The notes under the pieces: generated by a model
Databases searched by the model: none
Told to the model about the DNA's origin: nothing
The model's input: only the letters and a program-made list of their open reading frames with translations
Assembly (NCBI RefSeq): GCF_014696715.1
Contig: NZ_JACJQO010000001.1
Coordinates: forward strand, 1-64,000
Length of the DNA stretch: 64,000 nucleotides
DNA from: Pseudanabaena sp. FACHB-2040
Lineage (GTDB): Bacteria; Cyanobacteriota; Cyanobacteriia; Phormidesmidales; Phormidesmidaceae
Direction of reading: 5' to 3'
Program-made: the position numbers and the translations under genes
Shown here: positions 9,983 through 11,995 of the stretch, piece after piece
Layout of the letters: each line of letters starts with the position of its first letter
How positions within the stretch are numbered: the first letter of the stretch is position 1

Positions 9983-11488
9983 TCACTTAAGAAAGCTCAC
10001 ATAACCATCAGCAAAGTCTTCCTCATGTATCTGCTTTTTACTAACCCCTAAGGTTTTCAAATAGGCTTTTATCGAGGTCTTGAGCTTGGAAGGACCACAG
10101 ATATATATTTCTGGACTTGTGTGATTTTGCAAGTATTGAGCAAGAATATCTTCATTTAAGCGTTTTTGGTCACTAATAAAGTCTAGAGCTATAAAGTTCC
10201 TAAATTTGCCTGTAAGCTCTTCGATCTCCTTGGAAAAAATGACAGTTTCTTTTCTCTTACTGGCATAAAGTAAAGTCACTTTGCTATTCTTTTCTTTGGC
10301 AAGGATCGATTTAATCATCGAATAGAGAGGAGTAATGCCGCTTCCTCCAGCAATCATTAGGTAATTTCTGGCTTGATTGGGGTTCAACCTTACATTAAAG
10401 TTTCCCCAGGGATACAGAGCTTGAATTTCATCACCAATTTTTGCTGCAGTCGCGAGGTGGTTAGTTACCACACCATGTTTCTTTACGGTGATCCTTAGAA
10501 AATCATCGACATCTGGAGAACTGCTAAGGGAGAAGATGCGGTGGTAAACTTTTCCTTTAACCTTAATGCGAAGGTTAATGTGTTGTCCTGGCAAGTAATT
10601 ATAAAAGTTTTTGTCCTCGGGCTCGAAATAGATTGAAGTTGCCTCGGAAGTCTCAGGTACAATTTTGGAGATCTTAAGCGCTTTATAAGTTGAATTATCA
10701 ACTATTTGCACTGATCTCCTACGACCTTTTACCTGGCTTACAAGACGGTCATAATCATCAAACTCGGTTCCAAAAACAAGATCCCAGAATCTGAGAGACA
10801 ACCCATAGTTACCGTTGTATTGCGTATGGTGCTGGTTATGATGGGTACTATTTACTAAATATCTAAGAGGCGTTCTATCGAAAAACTTTGGATAGAATTC
10901 GTATCCAAGATGGGATTTGATGTTGTTGAAAAGACCTACTACCTGATTGATTCCAATTGCTAAAACGCTGACAGGGAACATAAAGATGACAATGTAGATC
11001 CACCCCGAGAGAATCAGGGGTTCTAGAAAGTGAAATGAAAGAGCGGTATAGGGCGTGGTATCCAGGCTCTGGTGGTGAACGGCATGGATATATCTATAGA
11101 CCTTTGAGTGATGCAGCAGCCTATGGGCGAAATAAAACCAAGCATCGCCGATAAGCCACAGAATAAGCGTGTTAAGAATGAGGTACCCAACACCATATTG
11201 ATTGATATCCACATAGATTTTGGTGTAGCCCATCTGCTGCAAAATCAGAACGACAGGCGTGGTAACTATACCCCCAACTATGACGATAATACTGTTCTTA
11301 ATTTCTTCTCGAATTTGTGTTGGGCCAGCCCGTTTAACTGATTGAATGCGAAAGCGTTTGAAGCTGGAGGCAAAAAATCTCCAAACCACCAGGTAAGCAA
11401 TAGTTATTACAAACAGTTGAGATACCAGTGACTGGAAAAAACCCTGAATGACAGTTTCGAGAAATTGGTAGATTTGCTGTGGGTCCAT
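9983..11488 (-). CDS. fatty-acid hydroxylase / sterol-desaturase domain fused to FAD/NAD(P) reductase
   Basis: A 501-residue two-domain membrane enzyme. Residues 1-255 form a membrane di-iron hydroxylase: hydrophobic helices at about 20-40, 65-85, 100-120 and 155-185, with histidine clusters HRLLHH (122-127), HAVHHQ (135-140) and HHNQHH (216-221). Residues 265-501 form a ferredoxin-reductase-type electron-transfer domain: flavin motif HRIFSLSSSP (316-325), nucleotide-binding GGSGITPLYS (381-390) and the CGP motif (464-466). No C-terminal Cys-rich 2Fe-2S domain is present. The protein should oxidise a lipid, with NAD(P)H electrons passing from flavin either directly or through an external carrier. 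It lies 5 bases after a MarR regulator. Codons are A/T-rich compared with neighbours, suggesting acquisition. The substrate is unknown. Confidence 0.87.
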   Translation of the reverse strand: MDPQQIYQFLETVIQGFFQSLVSQLFVITIAYLVVWRFFASSFKRFRIQSVKRAGPTQIREEIKNSIIVIVGGIVTTPVVLILQQMGYTKIYVDINQYGVGYLILNTLILWLIGDAWFYFAHRLLHHSKVYRYIHAVHHQSLDTTPYTALSFHFLEPLILSGWIYIVIFMFPVSVLAIGINQVVGLFNNIKSHLGYEFYPKFFDRTPLRYLVNSTHHNQHHTQYNGNYGLSLRFWDLVFGTEFDDYDRLVSQVKGRRRSVQIVDNSTYKALKISKIVPETSEATSIYFEPEDKNFYNYLPGQHINLRIKVKGKVYHRIFSLSSSPDVDDFLRITVKKHGVVTNHLATAAKIGDEIQALYPWGNFNVRLNPNQARNYLMIAGGSGITPLYSMIKSILAKEKNSKVTLLYASKRKETVIFSKEIEELTGKFRNFIALDFISDQKRLNEDILAQYLQNHTSPEIYICGPSKLKTSIKAYLKTLGVSKKQIHEEDFADGYVSFLK

Positions 11489-11493
11489 GTGAG

Positions 11494-11949
11494 TTACCTG
11501 TGACTGTGAATTTGATTAATCTTCTGAAGTATGGCGATAAATTCTTGAGTGTGATTTGTACTGTAAAAATCTTGGTTTGCTGTTCCCAAAACTTTAGCCA
11601 CATCTATTGATACTGCTATGCCTGCTTCGGTGACGGTCACTTTTTTGGCTCGTGAATCGGAAGCAGTCCGGCGGGTTATCCACTGCTTCTTCTCTAAGCT
11701 CTTTAATATCTTGGAGGTGTTCATGATTGACCCTCCTGTTGCATGGGCGATATCAACCTGAGTGACTTCACTCAGCTTTTTAGATAACTGCAGGATCGAG
11801 ATGAGATGAAAACATTCACCTTGATTGATGTCAAATTCCTTGAGTTTTTGGTTGACATATTTTTCCCACTTGTTTGACAGCTGCCAGATCAGAAACCCAG
11901 CAAAATCTTCTGGGTTAGGCGCGTCTATGGGTAATGACTCTAGGTTCAT
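11494..11949 (-). CDS. MarR family transcriptional regulator
   Basis: A 151-residue winged-helix regulator. The central region LSKKLSEVTQVDIAHATGGSIMNTSKILKSLEKKQWITRR is the MarR helix-turn-helix with wing; the dimerising helices flank it. It would bind an operator as a dimer and release DNA when a small ligand or oxidant binds. It is the first gene of a two-gene unit with the hydroxylase-reductase, which is the obvious target, and it probably also controls itself through the promoter at 11966-11995. It shares the A/T-rich codon use of its partner. Confidence 0.87.
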   Translation of the reverse strand: MNLESLPIDAPNPEDFAGFLIWQLSNKWEKYVNQKLKEFDINQGECFHLISILQLSKKLSEVTQVDIAHATGGSIMNTSKILKSLEKKQWITRRTASDSRAKKVTVTEAGIAVSIDVAKVLGTANQDFYSTNHTQEFIAILQKINQIHSHR

Positions 11950-11965
11950 TTTACTATCTTAATTT

Positions 11966-11995
11966 ACTATAAACTAATTTAGCAAAAAGAGTCAA
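11966..11995 (-). promoter_or_regulatory. sigma-70-type promoter of the marR-hydroxylase unit
   Basis: Read on the minus strand, a -35 TTGACT (11995-11990) is followed by an 18-base A/T-rich spacer and a -10 TATAGT (11971-11966). Transcription would begin near 11959, only about ten bases before the ATG at 11949, so the mRNA would have an unusually short leader. Direct TTACTAT repeats at 11951-11957 and 11964-11970 overlap the -10 and could be part of an operator. Confidence 0.6.

Follow-up and report, generated by a model that had tools for sequence, protein, structure and literature searches.

A membrane histidine-box hydroxylase fused to a flavin reductase module without an iron-sulfur centre in five cyanobacterial species

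Membrane histidine-box non-heme di-iron oxygenases that share one chain with their redox partners have been described. In the AlkB fusions, either AlkB-rubredoxin (AlkBG) or ferr_ferrR_AlkB, rubredoxin or ferredoxin provides the relay (PMC8918992, PMC10113152). The rubredoxin iron of FtAlkBG lies 13.6 Angstrom from the nearer iron of the hydroxylase, and rubredoxin must leave for re-reduction by FAD (PMC10113152). Fatty acid 2-hydroxylases (Fah1/Scs7, FA2H) also combine an FA_hydroxylase-type membrane enzyme with an electron donor domain. In this case the donor is an N-terminal cytochrome b5 and there is no flavin domain (PMC8918992). No reductase is fused to OlsE or to the other bacterial proteins of the 'sterol desaturase family'.

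Flavin modules are paired with oxygen-activating metal sites elsewhere. PaaE, the reductase of phenylacetyl-CoA epoxidase, uses NADPH, FAD and a C-terminal 2Fe-2S centre to supply a soluble, carboxylate-bridged di-iron oxygenase, from which it is a separate subunit (PMC4498308). In the flavohemoglobin Hmp, an NO dioxygenase, an N-terminal O2-activating globin is followed by a C-terminal FNR-type FAD/NAD module without iron-sulfur, and this FNR-family reductase serves the attached metal domain (PMC3820574). The cyanobacterial flavodiiron proteins Flv1-4 have flavin and di-iron domains within one chain (PMC4390876). They are soluble, have an unrelated fold and reduce O2 rather than hydroxylate lipid.

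Here we describe a gene in a 64,000-nucleotide stretch of Pseudanabaena sp. FACHB-2040 DNA (contig NZ_JACJQO010000001.1; hereafter the window) that combines these features differently. The hydroxylase module is homologous to OlsE and its relatives; AlkB belongs to a different histidine-box branch. Whereas the described AlkB fusions always include an iron-sulfur or rubredoxin centre, the window fusion has none. Its reductase is C-terminal, whereas the ferredoxin and ferredoxin reductase of ferr_ferrR_AlkB are N-terminal and the cytochrome b5 of Fah1/Scs7 and FA2H is likewise. The layout resembles that of Hmp, except that the soluble heme globin gives way to a membrane di-iron hydroxylase. Unlike PaaE, the reductase is neither a separate subunit nor in possession of a 2Fe-2S domain, and the oxygenase is not of the soluble type. 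Fusions between histidine-box oxygenases and redox partners are already known; in the papers and collections that we searched, none joined the oxygenase to a flavin reductase without an iron-sulfur or heme relay. The open-access literature that we searched contained no FA_hydroxylase-FNR fusion and no characterised member of this layout.

Domain layout and absence of an iron-sulfur centre

The open reading frame is intact, begins with ATG and has exactly the coordinates that the initial annotation had given (Table 1). The first domain matched Pfam FA_hydroxylase (PF04116) with an E value of 3.8e-24 (86 bits, gathering score 31). FAD_binding_6 (E 9.6e-9) and NAD_binding_1 (E 3.8e-14) followed, both over the curated cutoff, and NAD_binding_6 (ferric reductase) was a secondary match. 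Hydrophobic stretches occupy residues 13-43, 65-83, 100-118 and 158-176, and a short linker of ~25 residues connects the hydroxylase domain to the FAD module. The initial reading of three histidine boxes followed by FAD and NAD(P) motifs was therefore borne out by the Pfam domains and by the aligned boxes and motifs.

Table 1. Positions of the fusion gene, its domains and motifs, and the upstream features in the window
Feature	Coordinates	Strand	Basis
Fusion gene, FA_hydroxylase (PF04116)-FAD_binding_6-NAD_binding_1, 501 aa	9983..11488	-	ORF, Pfam, 501-aa orthologues L004, L005, L007
FA_hydroxylase domain, aa 108-241	10766..11167	-	Pfam
His box 1, H122xxxH126H127	11108..11125	-	Alignment; H127 is Gln in L006
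His box 2, H135xxH138H139	11072..11086	-	Alignment
His box 3, H217xxH220H221; H216 just before, Asn in L004	10826..10840	-	Alignment
FAD-binding domain, aa 292-364, FAD motif R317-x-F-S320	10397..10615	-	Pfam, alignment
NAD(P)-binding domain, aa 378-472, GGSGITP (381-387), CGP (464-466)	10073..10357	-	Pfam, alignment
MarR/SlyA-type regulator, 151 aa, 5 bp ahead of the fusion gene	11494..11949	-	ORF, Pfam, NCBIfam
Operator-like palindrome TAAACTAATTTA, 12 bp	11970..11981		Upstream of MarR gene; five-locus alignment

The HxxxH, HxxHH, HxxHH ligand set of the FA_hydroxylase superfamily is present and is kept in the fusions and their homologues. We aligned 24-27 sequences, comprising the fusions and homologues from Rhizobiaceae, Bacteroidota and a viral-collection contig. 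Residues H135, H138, H139, H193, H217, H220 and H221 were invariant, and H122 and H126 were invariant or nearly so. H127 was the only box histidine outside this set. A bound di-iron site and O2-dependent hydroxylation are predicted. The initial annotation named the protein a lipid hydroxylase. The hydroxylase part of that name stands; 'lipid' is a family-level guess. The nearest curated hydroxylase model, the ornithine lipid hydroxylase OlsE (NF052566), scored 27.9 bits against a cutoff of 475, and no neighbouring gene indicated a substrate. PF04116 also takes in sterol and carotenoid enzymes. By family membership, the substrate is probably of the lipid class.

The RxFS and GxGxTP motifs of the FNR superfamily are present in the second half, as R317-F319-S320 (RIFS 317-320) and GGSGITP, together with CGP and HEEDF (488-492). 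The chain ends with HEEDF followed by ADGYVSFLK, with no Fer2 domain, and the HEEDF motif agrees with the ends of ferredoxin-free FNR modules. The Pfam scan found no Fer2 in the four fusions and did detect it in homologous control reductases, a PaaE (L075) and a cyanobacterial FHA-FNR-Fer2 protein (L085). No globin domain (PF00042) was matched. The only cysteine of the window protein is C464, inside the CGP motif. In L004 the equivalent residue is serine and the single cysteine is at another site; the L005 and L007 proteins have two and three cysteines respectively, and none is common to all four full-length copies. With one, non-conserved, cysteine in the chain there is no room for a 2Fe-2S or rubredoxin centre of the kind found in AlkB-type fusions. 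An end near residue 501 with no cysteine cluster, as first proposed, was thus confirmed.

An artefact, in which a frameshift conceals a 2Fe-2S domain or a sequencing error joins two genes, would undermine this description. The L006 frame does end early. However, it does so ~30 bp from a contig end, and that copy says nothing about the C-terminus. In four genomes the protein is 501 residues long, to the residue, with the same C-terminal sequence, and a frameshift is therefore excluded. We also read the three frames downstream of the stop in four genomes, and no CxxxxCxxC motif was present. A chance open reading frame, a frameshift and truncation are ruled out, and we give the artefact a negligible probability. 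An ordinary PaaE-like protein with Fer2 was also rejected; the protein scores below the PaaE cutoff and has no Fer2.

Distribution and origin of the two modules

Four orthologues were identified, in Phormidium tenue FACHB-886 (84% identity), the filamentous cyanobacteria CCP2 (76%) and CCP3 (75%, partial), and Nodosilinea sp. LEGE 06152 (75%; L007). Full-length copies are thus the window's and three of 75-84% identity. Of 65 genomes from the window's own family that were searched whole, 3 carried the fusion, and a class-wide sample of 390 genomes added two carriers from another family. This gives five species in two cyanobacterial families, with both modules joined in every one. A separate phylum sample (386 genomes) returned the window's own fusion only. 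No plasmid record, out of 72,556, had a place covering 80% of the query, and within these genome samples and plasmid records no fusion lay outside the five cyanobacterial species. In comparisons of full-length copies, the hydroxylase half gave dN/dS values of 0.04-0.09 and the reductase half gave 0.07-0.13; synonymous sites were close to saturation where the pairs were more divergent. Strong purifying selection thus acts on both halves. Among the sampled genomes the fusion is rare and patchy, yet maintained, and old enough to have diverged by 25%.

Other cyanobacterial FNR matches of 446-622 residues were considered as sister fusions. None of the ten that we examined was a hydroxylase fusion. 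One was a bare FNR, another a membrane protein resembling ferric reductases, and the rest FHA-FNR-Fer2 proteins. Eight cyanobacterial proteins (L085-L092, from G367, G155, G169, G340, G012, G187, G342 and G126; ~460-620 residues) combine FHA and FNR modules with a 2Fe-2S domain at the C-terminus, as judged by Pfam for L085 and by eye for the others. The attachment of a phosphopeptide-binding FHA domain to a reductase is unusual. A match in genome G567 with an in-frame stop was rejected as a split hydroxylase/reductase pair; it is a standalone hydroxylase with no neighbouring reductase.

The hydroxylase tree, built from 78 modules, placed the five fusions in a single group (100/99). This group lay outside the main cyanobacterial cluster of 48 standalone hydroxylases (100/97). 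It stood next to a rhizobial group, a placement (89/91) that is insecure and involves long branches. The rhizobial homologues could not be supported as OlsE, and the genes flanking two of them gave no hint of function. Scans of viral contigs contributed a few sequences only. One contig classed as viral (IMGVR_UViG_3300008266_000142; L105/L107) has a sterol-desaturase-family gene that branches among the cyanobacterial copies and adjoins genes that are phage-like by eye, a possible phage-carried hydroxylase.

The fusions also formed one group (100/99) in a tree of 23 reductase modules. Their position among PaaE-type, Vibrio/Flammeovirga FNR-Fer2 and Hmp/FHA-FNR modules was not resolved, and they fell outside Hmp. 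The top NCBIfam score of the reductase half was with PaaE (TIGR02160; 139.6 bits, cutoff 420.8), and the match covered positions 1-242 of 352, which is all but the 2Fe-2S domain. Flavohemoglobin was second (128.5 bits, positions 154-392 of 399). Among solved structures, the top sequence matches were flavohemoglobin, which was also the top fold match, and cytochrome b5 reductase; both are without iron-sulfur. The reductase half is therefore nearest by sequence to the PaaE type, which has a 2Fe-2S domain, and like flavohemoglobin, which has not, in layout. A PaaE-like ancestor that lost its Fer2 domain is plausible. A single fusion event, perhaps with horizontal transfer, is the simplest reading. 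As a separate observation, a lipoxygenase family gene lies directly upstream of the hmpA flavohemoglobin gene on Aureibacter tunicatorum plasmid pAT1 (L079:1-2717).

The upstream MarR gene and its palindrome

A MarR-family gene lies directly upstream of the fusion at all five loci; the gap measures 5 bp for the window and L004 copies and 9 bp for those of L005-L007. The PF01047 match of the encoded protein is marginal (24.9, cutoff 24.6), and its match to SlyA (NF002926; E 2.9e-11) is under that model's cutoff. The palindrome precedes the MarR start by ~20 bp and was aligned at 5/5 loci. It is perfect, as TAAACTAGTTTA, in L006 and L007. Within one mismatch it has a single match in the window, where 0.04 would be expected by chance. 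It is a probable operator. Because the MarR-fusion tandem and the palindrome are both conserved at five loci, an autoregulated two-gene operon is suggested. Thus, the search for further fusions and their context, which the initial annotation had called for, yielded five species in two families with a MarR gene no more than 9 bp upstream throughout.

Reading of the flanks at the five loci revealed no other conserved gene around the pair, and the open reading frames flanking the window fusion and those of L004, L005, L006 and L007 included no ferredoxin, rubredoxin or cytochrome b5 gene. In Nodosilinea sp. LEGE 06152, a gene that resembles a Rieske-type oxygenase by eye (L007:2539-3528) precedes the MarR gene by ~1 kb, and a TetR-like regulator lies between the two; this arrangement was not seen at the other fusion loci. 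The host genome encodes two further PF04116 proteins besides the fusion. The third PF04116 match (C6:255793-256239) is in a 399-aa open frame, which is long for a single-domain member.

Proposed electron transfer to the di-iron site

We consider it slightly more probable than an even chance that the fusion, under MarR control, is a self-contained membrane monooxygenase dependent on NAD(P)H, with electrons passing from FAD to the di-iron site within the chain. The complete hydroxylase and FNR modules, the absence of iron-sulfur ligands, the constraint on both halves and the lack of a linked carrier gene in the flanks read support this reading, as do the union of both modules in every carrier species and the matches to flavohemoglobin and cytochrome b5 reductase. 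The MarR protein would keep its operon repressed until a ligand, hydrophobic or redox-active, arrives. NAD(P)H would then reduce FAD in the FNR module. On its ~25-residue tether, this module would take up the place on the cytosolic side at which related enzymes would receive ferredoxin, rubredoxin or cytochrome b5. Two electrons would move, one at a time, from FAD directly to the di-iron site, which would activate O2 for hydroxylation or desaturation of a membrane-soluble substrate. The fusion would work as flavohemoglobin does, with a globin and an FNR module and no iron-sulfur, the globin being replaced by a di-iron membrane hydroxylase. In flavodiiron proteins, electrons pass from FMN to a di-iron site. 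Two AlphaFold models had pLDDT values of 57 and 65 and pTM values of 0.42 and 0.47, and the linker and several FAD-domain loops were below pLDDT 50. With low TM-scores, they suggest an FNR-like C-terminal half. Given this low confidence, the models give no reading of the interface or of FAD position relative to the irons.

The initial annotation offered a choice between direct flavin-to-di-iron transfer and an external carrier. With no iron-sulfur centre in the chain that choice was fairly put, and the data do not pick one; we judge the direct route about as probable as its negation. In the papers that we read, wherever the donor of a membrane histidine-box hydroxylase or desaturase is known, it is rubredoxin, ferredoxin or cytochrome b5 (PMC8918992, PMC10113152). 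This counts against direct transfer, as does the normal route in PaaE, the nearest reductase by profile, from FAD to a 2Fe-2S centre (PMC4498308). Alternatively, the FNR module would pass its electrons to a carrier encoded separately in the genome, a 2Fe-2S ferredoxin or flavodoxin, which would then dock on the hydroxylase of the same or another molecule, and the fusion would serve just to bring donor and acceptor together. This has perhaps one chance in three. In the host genome, 9 Fer2 matches exceed the family cut-off. Several of them lie in open frames (103-143 aa) compatible with free ferredoxins, and a carrier is therefore available to the fused FNR. Related reductases, PaaE and the cyanobacterial FHA-FNR-Fer2 proteins, bear a 2Fe-2S domain (PMC4498308), and the rubredoxin of FtAlkBG must dissociate to travel back and forth between the reductase and its hydroxylase (PMC10113152). 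Soluble donors presumably feed the many cyanobacterial PF04116-like proteins that stand alone. However, if photosynthetic ferredoxin suffices, a fused reductase gains little except in the dark; moreover, no carrier gene is linked to the fusion at the five loci, and purifying selection has kept the fusion intact.

It is improbable that the halves are only physically joined, with the reductase mainly serving another acceptor (ferric iron, quinone or O2) or the hydroxylase having another role. FNR modules do function in ferric reductases and NADPH oxidases, and NAD_binding_6 was matched here. Conversely, the canonical histidine-box ligands are kept in five fusions and in distant homologues, and constraint on the two halves is similar. 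An idle hydroxylase would decay.

Membrane di-iron hydroxylases and desaturases are difficult to study and engineer because the electron carriers on which they depend are separate and often unidentified. With a natural version that brings its own reductase and has no iron-sulfur relay, flavin-only feeding of a histidine-box di-iron site could be tested directly. We tentatively suggest, at somewhat less than an even chance, that this is the first integral-membrane histidine-box di-iron hydroxylase to be reduced directly by FAD of its own chain, without iron-sulfur, rubredoxin or cytochrome b5. If self-contained, the fusion would accomplish NAD(P)H-driven membrane monooxygenation in a single protein, as the di-iron membrane equivalent of flavohemoglobin and the self-sufficient P450s. 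The linked MarR gene and palindrome provide a handle on the inducer and hence on the substrate class, and the fusion would serve as a one-component scaffold for lipid or hydrocarbon oxidation.
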